DNA of 64,000 nucleotides from contig NC_013171.1 of assembly GCF_000024105.1 (NCBI RefSeq), forward strand, positions 1,484,501 to 1,548,500, read 5' to 3'. The DNA comes from Anaerococcus prevotii DSM 20548 (GTDB taxonomy: Bacteria; Bacillota; Clostridia; Tissierellales; Peptoniphilaceae). The translations under genes were made by a program, and so were the position numbers. A model generated the notes under the pieces. It did no database searches and had not been told where the DNA came from. It saw nothing but the letters and a program-made list of their open reading frames with translations. The first letter of the stretch is position 1, and every line of letters begins with the position of its first letter. This document shows positions 13,731-28,020 of the stretch, piece by piece.

Positions 13731-13768
13731 GAAAAAAGCGGAAGACAAAACAAAGTCATTCCGCTTAA
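13731..13768 (-). terminator. Riboswitch-controlled intrinsic terminator
   Basis: On the minus strand AAGCGGAA pairs with TTCCGCTT, and inner GAC pairs with GTC, followed directly by TTTTTT. It lies between the TPP aptamer and thiD, so control is by transcription attenuation. Confidence 0.88.
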
Positions 13769-13774
13769 TAAATC

Positions 13775-13849
13775 TCCCTACGTTGGCATTATCCAAATCA
13801 GGTAAGGTCGAGGGTTACACCCTCCTCTCAGATCCTAAAAGAACTCCCT
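13775..13849 (-). ncRNA. TPP (THI-element) riboswitch
   Basis: The minus strand contains the conserved thi-box segments in order: GGGAG, CTGAGAGGAGGG, ACCCTCGACCTTACCTGAT, GGATAATGCCAACG and TAGGGA closing the basal stem. The bulge CTGAGA and the GGATAATGCCA motif contact the pyrimidine and diphosphate of TPP. The element precedes thiD-cytX, and binding should favour the terminator that follows. Confidence 0.97.
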
Positions 13850-13872
13850 TGCTTTATTCTTTTTATATTTAA

Positions 13873-13901
13873 ATTGTAATATTAGAAAATAAGAAAGTCA
13901 A
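13873..13901 (-). promoter_or_regulatory. Promoter of the thiD-cytX unit
   Basis: TTGACT (13896-13901) and TACAAT (13873-13878) are separated by 17 bases on the minus strand, about 25 bases before the riboswitch aptamer. Confidence 0.75.
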
Positions 13902-13917
13902 ATGGGAAAGGTATTTT

Positions 13918-14806
13918 ATAAAATATCTTTGACAAAATATTTTTAGATATTAAGTTATCTTAATATTAGAATATATCTTGAAGTAAGGTTGGACCCTTCG
14001 AACCTCAGGGAGACAGCTAAGGGGGGGCGGCAGAGGCCCCCTCTACCTTTCTCCCTGAACCCTCTTTTCATTCACCCCCTCTGCTCCTTAAGCGGAGTGC
14101 GAAAAAGGTCGATTTGCTACGCAAATCTTTGTTGGTAGGGGGATCCCTTCATCTTAATTGTCCTTGAATTTAACAATGTCTAATCTCCGTCTCTCTAAAA
14201 ATCGATAACTCGCTAACGCTCAAACAAATCGATTTTCTCAACGAGAGACTTGATTAGACATTTCTACTCGTCCATTGAGTGAGGGAGGGGTAAGCTTTGC
14301 TTTCGCAAAGCGTATCATTTTTTATTCTTTATATTACATATTACTTTAAAAAATAATTCTGACCTAGCGAAGCTAGGAAGAATTTTTCAGTTTATTCAGA
14401 TATAGATACATAATATGCTTTAGCATATCTTACAAATACCTTTACCGAGTATCATGTATAATCAGAATGAGCGTTAAGAAAATTTATCTGTTTGAGCGAA
14501 GCGAGTTATAAATTTTTAGCGAATGATGATTAGGAATCCTAAGCTACTAAGCAAATTAAAACGAAGAGTTCTGCCTAATAAAAAAGATTGGCGTAAGCCA
14601 ATCAACAAATTCCGCACTCCGCTAAGGAGCAGAGGGGGTGAGGGGAAAAGGGGTCCTAGGGGAAAGACTGGAGGGGGCCTCTGCCGCCCCCTTAGGCTGT
14701 CCCCTAGAGAACGAAGGTATTAATTTTATTATAATAATAACTAGATTCTTCAGATAACTATATCAAAACATTTTTAGTCTCAGATATTTTGAAGAAAAAT
14801 ATCTCC
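13918..14806. repeat. Element A: ~0.9 kb noncoding structured repeat, first copy
   Basis: This gene-free stretch has a close relative at 24229-25212. Edges are AT-rich (AAATATCTTTGACA on the left, AGATATTTT and AAAATATCT on the right). Next come GC-rich end modules with long G and C runs (13987-14110 and 14600-14722) that are inverted and diverged versions of each other. A core (14110-14590) is packed with hairpins. The largest, 14177-14260, has TGTCTAATC/GATTAGACA, GTCTCTC/GAGAGAC and AAAATCGAT/ATCGATTTT arms nested in order. Others are GATTTGC/GCAAATC, GCTTTGC/GCAAAGC, CCTAGC/GCTAGG and GATTGGC/GCCAATC. The only open frame (14523-14723) is not conserved and crosses hairpins. It begins after the thiD promoter and ends two bases from the trkH stop. 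No transposase is present. Confidence 0.85.
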
Positions 14807-14807
14807 C

Positions 14808-16265
14808 CTACTTCCTAATATTCCTATAAGTCCCCGCCGAAAACAATAATATCATTGGATATAGTTCCAATCTTCCAAATAGCATGGCGAAGGTTAGGGT
14901 TAGTTTTGATAGTTTGCTCATTGCCTCAAAGCTTGTTACTGGGCCGAAGTCTATTAGTCCTGGACCTACGTTGTTGAAGGTGGTGGCTACTGCTGAGAAG
15001 GCTGATTCGAAGTTATTTGTCTCGAGCGTTATTACTAGCATAAATATTATAAATAAGAAGATATAAACCAAGATGTATCTGTTTATGGATTCTTCTACTT
15101 CCTTGTCTACCCTTTTGCCGTCCATCTTGTTTACACTTACTCTAAGTGGGTTTAGAGCTTTTCTTATTTGGTTTAGGGCTGATTTGAACAAAACTACAAA
15201 TCTAGAAACTTTTATTCCACCTGCAGTTGATCCTGCACAACCTCCGACAAACATCAAAAATATCAAGATATGTCTAGAAAAAAGTGGCCAGGCCCCATAG
15301 TCAAGGGATACGTATCCTGTCGTTGTTATAATTGAGGATACTGTAAATAGGGAAGTCACTCCAGTAAAAAACGAGCTATCGTACATACTTCTTATGTTAA
15401 AGAAGATAAGTAGGGCAGTCGTAGCTACTATGCCCAAGTACCAATAAAGCTCCTCACTTTTGAATGCTTGTCTAGCTGATCTTATGAGTGAAAAATAATA
15501 AATATTAAAGTTGATCCCGAAGGCTAGCATGGCTATAGATAAGACTATCTCAATATATCTTGAATTGTAATATCCGATAGATGCGGCCTTATTGGAAAAT
15601 CCTCCAGTTCCAGCTGTTCCCATGGCGTGAATTATTGCATCAAATAGATTCATTCCTCCAAAAAGGAGTAAGATTATTACAATTACAGTAAGGGCTATAT
15701 ACATTAGGTAAAGGACCCTTGCTGTTTGAGATAGTTTCGGAGTGATCTTGCCGAAAGTTGGCCCTGGTACTTCTGCCTGCATTAGGGAAGATGACTCCTT
15801 GTTGGCCTTTGGCATTATGGCAAGGGTAAATACTAAGATTCCCATTCCTCCAATAAAGTGGGAGAAAGATCTCCAGAAAATTATCGAATTAGGAAGAAGC
15901 TCCACGTTACTTGCAACTGAAGCTCCACAAGTTGTAAAACCACTCATCATCTCAAAAAAGGCATCGACGAAGCTTGGGTAGTTGCTTGCTGTTAGATAGA
16001 GGGGGATTGCCCCTATTATAGAAAATATTATCCAACAAGAGGCTGTGATAAACATGGCCTCTTTGGTGAAAATATGACCCTTGGCTGAGCCAGATCTCAT
16101 AAGTATAAAGCCTAAAAGAAAGGCTAAGACAATTGGTATTACAAAATTTCTTATATCTATTAAACTTTCCCTATAGATCAGACCTACAAGTAGGGGAATA
16201 AGCATAAGCATAGCCAAAACTTGCATTAGTCTTCCTATAGTATATTTAACTACTGATCCGTTCAT
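14808..16265 (-). CDS. trkH: Trk-type potassium uptake membrane protein TrkH/KtrB
   Basis: This is the ion-conducting membrane subunit for K+ uptake, 485 residues with repeated M1-P-M2 units. Selectivity-filter-like loops are MSGFTTCGASV (~107-117), TAGTGGFSNKAAS (~217-229), SIITTTGYVSLDYG (~313-326) and ATTFNNVGPGL (~428-438), each with the conserved glycine. Length and content match TrkH rather than the shorter KtrB. It is transcribed three bases after trkA, which encodes its regulatory subunit. The stop codon abuts the edge of element A, so the repeat may supply its transcript end. Confidence 0.93.
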   Translation of the reverse strand: MNGSVVKYTIGRLMQVLAMLMLIPLLVGLIYRESLIDIRNFVIPIVLAFLLGFILMRSGSAKGHIFTKEAMFITASCWIIFSIIGAIPLYLTASNYPSFVDAFFEMMSGFTTCGASVASNVELLPNSIIFWRSFSHFIGGMGILVFTLAIMPKANKESSSLMQAEVPGPTFGKITPKLSQTARVLYLMYIALTVIVIILLLFGGMNLFDAIIHAMGTAGTGGFSNKAASIGYYNSRYIEIVLSIAMLAFGINFNIYYFSLIRSARQAFKSEELYWYLGIVATTALLIFFNIRSMYDSSFFTGVTSLFTVSSIITTTGYVSLDYGAWPLFSRHILIFLMFVGGCAGSTAGGIKVSRFVVLFKSALNQIRKALNPLRVSVNKMDGKRVDKEVEESINRYILVYIFLFIIFMLVITLETNNFESAFSAVATTFNNVGPGLIDFGPVTSFEAMSKLSKLTLTFAMLFGRLELYPMILLFSAGTYRNIRK

Positions 16266-23406: not shown

Positions 23407-24234
23407 ATGATTAAATTAATAACAATAGATGTGGACGGAACTTTAGTAACTCCACTTAAAAGATTAACAAAGAAGAATAAAGAAGCGATCAAAAAAGCAA
23501 AGAAGGAAGGCATTCACATTGCCCTAGTTAGCGGCAGACCCTTCCATAGCATGATTCATCTTATAGAAGAATTAGACCTAGCCCAAAAGGGGCATTTTAC
23601 AATCTGCCAAAACGGATCTTACATCTATGATAACTTCACAAGAAAGCCAATGTTTGGGACCCACCAAAGCCCAAAAGACCTCTTTATAGTAGATAGGATG
23701 CTTGAAGGCTTTAAGCTTGAATTATCTAGTATGGATGACGAGGGTTTTTACACCAGACACAAAAACCCAAACTTCTATACAAAAATGGACGCAAGAATAA
23801 ACAAGCTTCCAATAAAGACAGTAGCCTACAAGGATTGGCCAGAAGATAAGGATTTTGGGAGATTTCTTATCCTAGGATCCGCAAGCGAGATAAGCCGCTT
23901 TATCAAAAATATGCCAAAAGCCTTAAAAGAAAACTACTACCCAGTCCAAACTGCACCTTTTCTAATAGAGGTGATGAACAAAAACACCAACAAGGGCTAC
24001 GCCATAGGACAAATGATAGAAAGACTGGGCCTCGATATGAGTGAAGTCATGGCAATAGGAAACGAAAAAAACGACATCCCCATGCTAGAAAAAGCAGGCT
24101 TTGCCGTAGCTATGGGTAATGCCGTTGAAGAACTCAAAGTCCACGCTGACTTCATAACAAAATCCAACTTAAACTCTGGGGTTGGCTATGCGATTGAGAA
24201 GTTACTGGACAATGGGAAGGAGAGATATTTTTAA
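23407..24234 (+). CDS. HAD-superfamily Cof-type phosphatase
   Basis: This 275-residue class IIB HAD hydrolase has motif I in LITIDVDGTLVTP (Asp at ~8 and ~10), motif II in ALVSGRPFHSM (Ser/Arg, ~43), motif III Lys in NTNKGYAIGQM (~196), and motif IV in MAIGNEKNDIPMLEKAG (~215). Asn replaces the first Asp of the usual GDxxND, which may alter metal binding. The cap domain lies between motifs II and III. The gene seems to be read from a leaderless mRNA. Its last codons overlap the left edge of element B, so the repeat begins at its 3' end. Confidence 0.87.
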   Translation: MIKLITIDVDGTLVTPLKRLTKKNKEAIKKAKKEGIHIALVSGRPFHSMIHLIEELDLAQKGHFTICQNGSYIYDNFTRKPMFGTHQSPKDLFIVDRMLEGFKLELSSMDDEGFYTRHKNPNFYTKMDARINKLPIKTVAYKDWPEDKDFGRFLILGSASEISRFIKNMPKALKENYYPVQTAPFLIEVMNKNTNKGYAIGQMIERLGLDMSEVMAIGNEKNDIPMLEKAGFAVAMGNAVEELKVHADFITKSNLNSGVGYAIEKLLDNGKERYF

Positions 24235-25212
24235 AAATATCTTTGACTAAAATATTTTAGATTAGTATTTCTATATATTAGAAAATTTCTTTATGCAGGG
24301 TTGGACCCTTCGAAACTCAAGGAATAAATGGATATATTTAAAAAATTTAATAAAGATTGCGATATGAGTATTTCTTTTTATTAAAGTGTTTTTCTTAATT
24401 AAGATATCATCTTCGTTCCCTAGGGGACAGCCTAAGGGGGCGGCAGAGACCCCCTCCAGTCTTTCCCCTAGAACCCCTTTTCCCCTCACCCCCTCTGCTC
24501 CTTGAGCGGAGTGCGGAAAAGGTCGATTTGCTCCGCAAATCTTTGTTGGTAGGGGGATCCCTTCATCTTAATTGTCCTTGAATTTAACAATGTCTAATCT
24601 CCGTCTCTCTAAAAATCGATAACTCGCTACGCTCAAACAAATCGATTTTCTTAACGAGAGACTTGATTAGACATTTCTACTCGTCCATTGAGTGAGGGAT
24701 GGGGTAAGCTTTGCTTTTGCAAAGCTTATCTTTTTTTATATCTTATTTTAATTTTGTATAATTCTGATCTAGCGTAGCTAGAAAGAATTTTCCCTATTTA
24801 TTTAGATAAAGATACAATATATTCTTTAGTATATCTTACAAATAACCTTACCGGGCAGCATGTATAATCAGAGTGAGCGTTAAGAAAATTTATCTGTTTG
24901 AGCGAAGCGAGTTATAAATTTTTAGCGAATGATGATTAGGAATCCCCAGCTGCTAAATAAACTAAAACGAAGAAGTTCTACCTACTAAAAAAAGATTGGC
25001 GTTAGCCAATCATCTGGTTTCGCACTCCGCTAAGGAGCAGAGGGGGTGAATGAAAAGAGGGTTCAGGGAGAAAGGTAGAGGGGGCCTCTGCCGCCCCCTT
25101 AGCTGTCTCCCTGAAGTTCGAAGGGTTCAACCCTGCTCGAATGTATATTCCAATACTCAGATATCTTAATACTAAATATTCTTAGTACCAGATATTTGAA
25201 ATAAAATATCTT
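24229..25212. repeat. Element B: ~0.98 kb noncoding structured repeat, second copy
   Basis: This is homologous to element A. The core (24515-25020) is in the same orientation and carries the same hairpins, including the large nested one at 24591-24673. The GC-rich end modules are swapped relative to A: the left end here matches the reverse complement of A's right end (CCTAGGGGACAGCC type), and the right end here matches the reverse complement of A's left end (CAGGGAGACAGCT type). The left side also holds a decayed second tip (GCAGGGTTGGACCCTTCGAA, 24296-24315) and about 100 extra bases not present in A. It fills the gap between the convergent HAD and uvrA genes exactly. No gene or transposase is visible inside. 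Confidence 0.85.
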
Positions 25213-28020
25213 CTATAATATCTTTTTAAGATACTGCCCAGTATAGGACTTTTTGTTTTTTGCTATCTCTTCTGGAGTACCGCTCGCTACTAGAGTACCT
25301 CCCCCGTCTCCTCCTTCTGGACCTAGGTCTATTAGGTTGTCGGAGACTTTTATTACGTCTAGGTTGTGCTCAATTACAACTACTGTATTATCCTGATCTA
25401 CTAGTCTGTTTAGAACTTCTATTAGCTTGTGGACGTCTGCCATGTGAAGGCCTGTTGTTGGTTCGTCTAGGATGTAGAGGGTTTTTCCTGTGGAGACTTT
25501 AGCAAGTTCTGTTGCTAGTTTCACCCTTTGAGCCTCTCCTCCAGATAGCTCTGTGGATGGTTGGCCTATTTTAATATAGCCTAGGCCTACATCGTAGAGA
25601 GTTTGGAGCTTTCTTACTATGCTAGGATGGTTTTGGAAAAATTCTATTCCTTCTTCTACAGTCATATCTAGGACGTCTGATATATCTTTGCCCTTGTATT
25701 TAACTTCAAGGGTTTCCCTGTTGTATCTTTTGCCGTGGCAGACTTCGCATGGAACGTATACATCTGGCAAGAACATCATATCCACCTTGATTGTTCCATC
25801 TCCCTTGCAGGCCTCGCACCTTCCTCCCTTAACGTTAAAGGAAAATCTCCCCTTATCATAGCCTTTCATCTTGGCCTCATTGGTCATGGCGAAGACATCC
25901 CTTATGGCATCGAAGACCTTGGTGTAGGTAGCTGGGTTTGACCTTGGAGTTCTTCCAATTGGGGATTGGTCTATGGCTATTACCTTATCAATCTTATCAA
26001 GACCTAGGATTTCCTTGTGCTTACCAGCTCTTATCTTGGTCTTGTTAATCTTCTTTGTAGCTTGCTTATAGAGAATTTCATTTACTAGGGAAGACTTCCC
26101 TGATCCTGATACTCCAGTTACAGTTGTAAGGACTCCTAGGGGGATTTTGACGTCAATGTTTTTGAGGTTGTTTACCGCAGCCCCCTTTATTTCTATATAT
26201 TCATCGCTTGTTCTTCTTTCCTTAGGAACTGGGATTTTTTTCCTTCCAGCTAGATAGTCTCCTGTGATTGACTTTTTGGAATTCATTATATCACGAAGAC
26301 TTCCCTTGGCGACAATCTCTCCACCGTGAACTCCTGCCTTTGGTCCAATATCAACTATATAGTCAGCTTCCTTCATAGTATCTTCGTCGTGTTCTACTAT
26401 GATTAGGGTGTTTCCAATATCTGTGAGATTTCTTAGGGCTGCTATGAGCTTATCGTTATCTCTCTGGTGAAGTCCTATGGAAGGCTCATCAAGGACATAG
26501 CAAACTCCTACAAGACCAGATCCTATTTGAGTAGCTAGTCTGATTCTCTGGCTTTCTCCACCGGATAAGGTCGCTGCCGCCCTATTTAAGGTCAAATAGG
26601 TAAGTCCCACGTCATTTAGGAAGGAGAGCCTCGCCTTAATTTCCTTTACTATAAGGTCTGCAATCTTCGCCTTCATTGGAGAAAGTTCGAGTTTAGCGAA
26701 AAAGTCTACGGACTTTTCTACGGAAAGTCTTGTAAGCTCTGAAATATTTACTCCTCCGACCTTGATAGCGAGGACTTCTGGCTTAAGTCTATCTCCATGG
26801 CAGGTGTCACATTCTTCTTCCGACATATATTCTCTAAACTTTTTCTTTTGAGCATCAGATCCTGTCCTTTGATAGCGGTCGTAGATATTTTTGATTGCTC
26901 CTTCAAAGGGTCCGGTGTATCTTTTCCTACCAGAAAAATGACTATCGAAGACAAAACTTAGGTCGTAATTTGTACCATGGAGTATATCTTCGATCATTTT
27001 CTTAGGAGCCTTTTTTATTGGATCATCATGGGAGAACTTGTAATGATCTGCTATAGCTCTTATCATCTCATAATAATAGCTCTCCTTGGTGGAAGTTGCA
27101 TAAGGGTCAATAGCCCCCTCGTTTATAGATAGGTCGTAGTCTGGTATAACAAGGTCCCTGTCGACTTGAAGGTGAAAACCAAGTCCATTACAGTCGGGAC
27201 ACATCCCTATTGGGGCGTTGAAGGAGAACATATTTGGTGTAATCTCTGGGAGGGATACGTGGCCTTCTGGACAGGCGAGCTTAGAAGATAGGAGTATCTC
27301 ATCTTCTCCTATCACATCTATGATAACTAGGCCATCTGCAAGTCCTAGGGCTGTCTCTATGGAATCTGTAAGTCTCGCATCGATTCCATCCTTGATCACA
27401 ATCCTATCTACAACGACAGAAATATCGTGCTTTTTGGTCTTGGATAGGTCGATATCTTCTGCCAAGTCGTACTTTTCTCCATCGATTACGACCCTTACAT
27501 ATCCATCCTTCTGGATATTTTCTAGGGCTCTTTTGTGAGCCCCCTTTTTTCCTCTGATTACTGGGGCAAGAATTTGGATTCTCGTTCTTTCAGGAAGTTC
27601 CTTTACCCTATCGACCATCTGGTCTATACTTTGGGCTTCTATCGGTCTACCACAGACTGGACAATAGGCATCTCCTACTCTTGCGTAAAGGAGCCTATAA
27701 TAATCGTAGATTTCTGTAACCGTTGCTACTGTAGATCTTGGGTTCCTGTTAGTTGTCTTCTGGTCGATTGATATGGATGGGGAAAGTCCCTCAATGGAGT
27801 CCACATCCGGCTTATCTACATTGCCCAAAAACTGCCTAGCATAGGAAGATAAGCTTTCGACATAACGCCTTTGTCCTTCCGCATAGATGGTATCAAAGGC
27901 AAGAGTAGACTTGCCAGAGCCTGAAAGGCCTGTAAATACAATCATCTTATCTCTTGGAAGATTGATATCTACGTTTTTGAGATTGTTGGTTCTTGCTCCT
28001 TTTATCTTAATTTCTGTCAA
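25213..28020 (-). CDS. uvrA: Excinuclease ABC subunit A
   Basis: This is the damage-recognition ATPase of nucleotide excision repair, which loads UvrB at lesions. At 935 residues it is full length. Two ABC ATPase modules are seen: Walker [14 protein letters not shown] (~32) and [13 protein letters not shown] (~640), each with its signature LSGGESQR (~490) and LSGGEAQR (~830). Zinc modules are CPVCGRP...CPEGH...CPDCNG and CEACKGDG...CEVCHGKR. Its ATG overlaps the uvrB stop (ATGA), the normal uvrB-uvrA coupling in this group. The stop codon lies one base beyond element B. Confidence 0.99.

Follow-up and report, generated by a model that had tools for sequence, protein, structure and literature searches.

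Prokaryotic MITEs are noncoding, intergenic and multicopy sequences with terminal inverted repeats, and their orthologous sites can be found empty (reviewed in PMC10969869). REPINs and REPs with their RAYTs (PMC3116915, PMC3733652, PMC6006769) have mirrored conserved hairpins with compensatory stems and conserved unpaired bases at the foot. The CGTC-tagged REPs have stems of 8–9 bp, loops of 4–5 bases and a CCA tail, and no dedicated transposase is known for them (PMC3733652). The pneumococcal BOX, RUP and SPRITE repeats are modular and strongly folded, with nested insertions and a bias to convergent genes; BOX reaches 637 bp (PMC3049150). Ultra-stable DNA mini-hairpins, d(GCGNAGC) and d(GCGNNAGC), combine a GNA or GNNA loop with at least two G-C pairs and are extraordinarily stable (GCGAAGC has a Tm of 78 °C), but they are chemical fragments and parts of aptamers rather than mobile elements (PMC4686876).

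Here we describe a 0.9-kb element that occurs twice, as A and B, in the window, that is, the whole 64,000-nt stretch of DNA analysed. In its working it most resembles a REPIN, its inventory is MITE-like, and BOX, RUP and SPRITE are nearest in habit. It has all the MITE characters named above, including terminal inverted repeats (GGGGAGATATTT..) at both ends of the copies. It differs from MITEs in its length of 0.9 kb, in inverted homology over its full length, in a structured core common to several phyla, in that no parental transposase was found, and in that no target duplication of fixed length was seen: none is visible for the 0.9-kb form at the sites compared, and those of the short form described below measure 15–22 bp. 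The initial annotation, made from the sequence of the window, had set the element apart from ordinary MITEs, which is partly right, as its length is unusual and it has neither a transposase nor a recurrent neighbour gene. As in REPINs, two inverted hairpin sequences, here cores on opposite strands, form one hairpin. The core of ~83 nt instead of 20–40 nt, a unit of 195 to 900 bp, the absence of a GTAG/GTGG foot tetranucleotide and the lack of a linked Y1 gene in 30 loci distinguish it from REPINs and REPs. The foot begins CGTT/CGTC as in CGTC-tagged REPs, from which the core differs by its long stems, its pair of conserved internal loops and its GNA/GNNA tip; this tip obeys the mini-hairpin rule. 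BOX, RUP and SPRITE differ in being confined to a few streptococci and in having no common core, and the accessible part of PMC3049150 reports no duplication of terminator hairpins.

Architecture and insertion of the 0.9-kb elements

The source genome is that of an Anaerococcus close to A. marasmi. No ORF of at least 80 aa lies within 13872–14808 or 24234–25213, the regions of A and B. A is flanked by trkH, whose stop codon abuts its right end, and on the other side by thiD with its upstream TPP riboswitch (RF00059, 64.1 bits, 13758–13860, minus strand), which adjoins the element. B lies between the convergent 3' ends of a HAD hydrolase gene and uvrA, and its terminal repeat is the source of the hydrolase stop codon. 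In each element one boundary coincides with a gene end (trkH for A, HAD hydrolase for B). The following features were located:

13907–14806, no strand: element A, whole giant palindrome, self-inverted at 67% over ~870 bp, with empty and filled orthologous sites compared
24222–25213, no strand: element B, whole; middle 84% identical to A, orthologous site filled in G007
13907–13945, plus strand: left terminal inverted repeat of A, AT-rich hairpin, family consensus GGGGAGATATTTTTTCTAAAATATCTTTTACTAAAAAT
14766–14806, minus strand: right terminal inverted repeat of A
14005–14058, plus strand: left GC-rich hairpin module of A, CAGGGAGA/TCTCCCTG version
14656–14707, plus strand: right GC-rich hairpin module of A, CTAGGGGA/TCCCCTAG version
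24420–24471, plus strand: left GC-rich hairpin module of B, CTAGGGGA version
25062–25115, plus strand: right GC-rich hairpin module of B, CAGGGAGA version
14111–14127, minus strand: satellite hairpin of A, left arm, tip GC-GTA-GC on the minus strand
14294–14311, minus strand: satellite hairpin of A, left arm, tip GC-GAAA-GC on the minus strand
14363–14377, plus strand: satellite hairpin of A, right arm, CCTAGC-GAA-GCTAGG; paired change and GTA tip in B
14586–14603, plus strand: satellite hairpin of A, right arm, tip GC-GTAA-GC

Comparison of A with its own minus strand reveals one imperfect foldback palindrome, and B follows the same plan with 68% over 715 bp plus end pieces. Each is built from two ~420-bp arms with an inverted-repeat identity of 67–68%. 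Folded with RNA parameters, A forms one long hairpin of −369 kcal/mol compared with −217 ± 8 in 20 shuffles (z = −18). The initial annotation was correct in describing both elements as noncoding and rich in hairpins, but overlooked that these hairpins are nested inside one element-long inverted repeat and that the genome holds six copies.

From the centre outward, each arm carries a small hairpin, a core hairpin, another small hairpin, a GC-rich hairpin and the AT-rich terminal repeat. Several satellite hairpins of A and B have GNA/GNNA-type tips, those of the left arm on the minus and those of the right arm on the plus strand. The GC-rich end modules are exchanged between A and B relative to the middle, with CAGGGAGA.. 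left in A and right in B and the reverse for CTAGGGGA.., an arrangement that recombination between the arms, inverting the middle, would produce. The two versions of the outer stem noticed in the initial annotation both exist, yet they are left and right end modules within each element and not A and B alleles of one stem. The paired substitution that it reported is a true difference between the elements, since the hairpin at 14363–14377 of A reads TCTAGC-GTA-GCTAGA in B (24768–24782).

Six copies are present in genome G000 (2.0 Mb), and 26 of 31 genus genomes yielded matches to the element, mostly to its inner part. The orthologous sites of copies A, B and C are filled in G007, and that of C also in G025. 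Between trkH and the TPP riboswitch, three other Anaerococcus species (G008, G011, G030) have no element while the two close species G007 and G017 do, and these empty orthologous sites identify A as an insertion. The gene context of the element was convergent in 30 cases and divergent in 10.

The filled A sites are themselves altered. G017 carries a 0.28-kb derivative from which the core is deleted; at orthologous sites in G017 (L205) and G025 (L206), derivatives of ~0.28 kb without core keep both ends, as if deleted between hairpins. In G007 (A. marasmi; L063, 2233–10800) two truncated element halves surround a cargo of ~7.5 kb, whose ORFs suggest a PTS sugar operon that includes a PRD-type regulator and a beta-galactosidase. 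Elsewhere in G007 (L062, 3965–4756) the terminal repeat and the adjacent gene terminator occur twice, on either side of a gene whose product is secreted and rich in repeats. In several Anaerococcus species (L055, L057, L058, L060), core-bearing elements adjoin genes for signal-peptide proteins that share KLAAGALALALGLGAVAP.

The core hairpin and its folded strand

Each 0.9-kb element contains two cores in mirror orientation on opposite strands:

14177–14259, minus strand: core 1 of A, left arm, tip GC-GTTA-GC on the minus strand; model R1 95.8 bits, DNA fold z = −5.6
14456–14536, plus strand: core 2 of A, right arm, tip GC-GAA-GC on the plus strand; R1 73.6 bits
24591–24672, minus strand: core 1 of B; R1 95.9 bits
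24862–24942, plus strand: core 2 of B; R1 72.8 bits

Core 1 of A corresponds to the nested hairpin (14177–14260) singled out in the initial annotation, which proved to be a real and strongly constrained motif according to its covariance-model score. The single-sequence DNA fold of core 2 of A is no better than that of shuffles. The ~83-nt plan consists of a stem P1, an internal loop GTTAA/A, a stem P2, an internal loop TGTTTGA/GAGTT and a stem P3, with CGTTAAG at the foot; the loops are fixed and the stems variable yet complementary. In an alignment of 43 sequences this structure is 81.8% paired, compared with 64% in shuffles and 31–52% in slid controls, and 230 cells are doubly changed as opposed to 93 in shuffles. 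P2 is 96% paired with both sides changed at 7 of 9 pairs, and in Anaerococcus it has almost no single-sided changes. The covariance model matched 87 of the 249 genomes searched from the order and 32 of the 391 from the class.

We searched GTDB genomes with the loop-only pattern CGTTAAG N5-12 TGTTTGAGCGNNGCGAGTT, which leaves the stem free, and found the core in at least six phyla. The matches listed include Bacteroides, Flavobacterium, Flammeovirga, Alkalitalea, Desulfobacula, Arcobacter, Sulfurimonas, Calditrichaeota, Alkanindiges, Clostridium and others. Although the pattern makes no demand on the stem, P2 is complementary in 94 of 96 cores among these listed matches. A set of 120 pattern-selected cores from across phyla contains 63 different P2 stems, in which 1047 of 1099 pairs (95%) are Watson-Crick, and keeps the G.T pair at the P2 foot in 105 cases.

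Similar cores occur in viral contigs, some of which, judged by their neighbouring ORFs, look like Mu-like prophages. In four IMG/VR contigs (L220, L228, L241, L289) the core has phage genes on both sides and is embedded in a larger palindrome, GCCCCGTNTAAATCGCC..GCGATTTAGTCGGGG, after which comes the hairpin TTCTTTCTTGCACAAGCAAGAAAGAA. In Bacteroidota-like contigs (L239, L248, L287, L296) the core is followed by CTTGAATTTTTGTTTCTTTTGTTTCAAGACAAAAGAAA, and pairing of this sequence with the upstream CTTGA could give a pseudoknot. Records of phages and plasmids gave no match to the element, and an Aureibacter plasmid matches its inner part over a short stretch (52 bp, 85%). No paper in the collection searched, which includes only a minority of subscription journals, contains any of six core strings of 15 to 16 bases, and general literature searches on the element returned work on MITEs, REPs and BOX only. 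The core, which occurs in many bacterial phyla, has no name as far as found.

If one RNA strand were under selection, that strand should carry more G.U than A.C mispairs. In the arms of 13 copies, G.T and A.C mispairs are equally common (217 and 212, p = 0.85), which lends no support to a functional RNA of 0.9 kb. Among the listed cross-phylum matches the core behaves differently, with 18 G.T vs 3 A.C mispairs in P2 (p = 0.0015) and 41 vs 14 in P1 (p = 0.0004); here as in the other core counts related sequences are treated as independent, and the p-values for strand bias are therefore optimistic. This bias makes the folded strand visible and leaves single-stranded DNA or RNA as its nature. The selection on pairing claimed in the initial annotation is thus demonstrable in the core and not over the whole 0.9 kb, whose arms are ~75–83% paired with mispairs showing no strand preference.

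The tips of the core bear on this choice. In 100 cores fetched without fixing the tip, 93 end in GNA or GNNA: GNA accounts for 47 of 51 triloops and GNNA for 46 of 49 tetraloops, with only 6 GNRA among the latter. Most of these loops are closed by at least two G-C pairs (GCGTTAGC, GCGAAGC, GCGTAGC and longer), and a minority have A-T among the closing pairs. The tip rule holds in 103/103 and in 17/17 pattern-selected loci with stems; in the former set the free third loop base is always A and the second is A, T, C or G. As the tips follow the rule of DNA mini-hairpins, single-stranded DNA is favoured over RNA. This suggests that DNA would be the active form of the core, although tips and strand bias alone are compatible with RNA too. 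Apart from the TPP riboswitch outside it, Rfam yielded no match on the element at gathering thresholds and only weak chance matches at E ≤ 10, in agreement with the initial annotation, which recognised no named large RNA; 12 loci of other phyla gave one tRNA only. Between the large structured RNA and the DNA hairpin element which that annotation had offered, the latter is the better half, and a large RNA is unsupported for the whole element.

Short relatives, flanking hairpins and candidate partners

The core also occurs in a palindrome of 195–198 bp at eight sites in several Anaerococcus. Four pairs of filled and empty sites are available, in which the empty site has one terminator hairpin and the filled site has the same hairpin on both sides of the short element. 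The duplicated hairpins form direct repeats of 15 bp (TGCCCTTTCAGGGCT), 22 bp (ACCAAAGCTTTAAACTTTGGTT), 21 bp (AGAAAAAGTAAAACTTTTTCT) and about 20 bp. In these 195-bp relatives, the length of the duplication tracks the target hairpin and not a fixed stagger. Flanking direct repeats were detected at 15 of 219 cores compared with 5 of 388 null pairs. Duplication of a terminator hairpin as a rule for all cores was rejected, as it is clear only in the short elements of Anaerococcus. It may be a property of this short subfamily; L121, from another Clostridia genome, is a possible further case.

No dedicated transposase or mobilising enzyme was found in or beside the element, and the 387 ORFs around 96 cores include no convincing recurrent neighbour protein. 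We searched six genomes with the terminal-repeat pattern for an autonomous transposon with the same ends and obtained element ends and control-level matches. Y1 (RAYT/IS200) as a necessary partner was rejected, since its presence neither correlates with cores nor flanks them. Seven genomes (G006, G008, G012, G027–G030) hold between 2 and 18 cores but give no Y1_Tnp match; conversely, Y1 is present and the core absent in G013, G014, G019 and others. In other groups, 4 of 12 core-bearing genomes lack a Y1 match, and the flanks examined of 30 Y1 loci, from 8 core-bearing genomes, contain no core.

Proposed mobility, alternatives and implications

A and B are probably copies of a non-autonomous, hairpin-recognised mobile DNA element, a 0.9-kb foldback with the core as its working part. 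The evidence for this is the palindromy, the copy number, the insertion of A and the conservation and covariation of the core across phyla, together with the strand bias of its mispairs, its GNA/GNNA tips and the hairpin-length target duplications of the short relatives. One strand would become single, as lagging strand or by displacement, and fold into P1, the GTTAA/A loop, P2 with its G.T foot, the TGTTTGA/GAGTT loop and P3 with its GNA/GNNA tip. A structure-recognising DNA enzyme, encoded neither in nor next to the element, would then read the loops and move the element. The 195-bp relatives would land at the feet of terminator hairpins and thereby become flanked by two hairpin copies, for which staggered cuts at both hairpin feet or a polymerase template switch there would be needed. 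The agent could be a structure-specific nuclease or recombinase acting in trans, or a DNA polymerase switching template at the hairpin feet, and we infer a common route of movement for the 0.9-kb and 195-bp forms. Only tentatively, and with somewhat less than even confidence, do we extend this to a cross-phylum class of mobile DNA labelled by a single-stranded GNA/GNNA-tipped hairpin, moved in trans by a putative structure-specific enzyme or by polymerase template switching, which would insert at hairpin feet and duplicate target hairpins of any length in full.

A large structured RNA, or a bidirectional terminator or stabiliser of mRNA 3' ends with constraint on RNA pairing, would account for the position downstream of genes, the enrichment between convergent genes, the A-runs and T-runs flanking internal hairpins, and the conserved G.T/G.U pair and strand-biased wobbles of the core. 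We consider it unlikely, as the arms of the whole element lack a wobble bias, the tips obey the DNA rule instead of GNRA, no Rfam family matches, the two cores of each element lie on opposite strands, and copy number and presence or absence between species follow the pattern of a mobile element. It is similarly doubtful that the core serves a TnpA-Y1 transposase (RAYT or IS200-like) as its REP hairpin in a REPIN/REPtron system. REPINs are not known to duplicate a target hairpin, and the distribution of Y1, its core-free flanks and the lack of GTAG at the core foot also argue against this relationship. The plan is nevertheless that of a REPIN, in which each unit carries two inverted hairpins that combine into a single long one and show compensatory changes (PMC3116915), and unpaired bases at the hairpin foot are conserved; the 'atypical secondary structures' of Bacteroidetes subclass 2.6 TnpA genes (PMC6006769) could be related.

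Compensatory changes could also arise by DNA template switching between the arms of a quasi-palindrome, that is, without selection. The near absence of single-sided changes from P2 in Anaerococcus, the strand symmetry of arm-level mispairs and the swapped ends, which indicate that arms recombine, are consistent with such a process. It would homogenise the loops too, however, and fixed loops with free stems across phyla, biased mispairs and the G.T foot need selection or the reuse of one recognition structure, so that we regard template switching as the sole cause as very improbable.

For the element as a mobile, hairpin-recognised DNA, the results carry a general caution: compensatory change alone is no proof of RNA function and here more likely marks DNA. 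If the proposed reading is true, one small DNA structure, with neither a name nor a known enzyme, would be common to interspersed elements in at least six phyla, and the GNA/GNNA mini-hairpin would have a natural use. There would also be a class of mobile elements whose target duplication is set by the secondary structure of the target and not by a fixed stagger, which would make the cutting or copying of hairpins in vivo a testable question.
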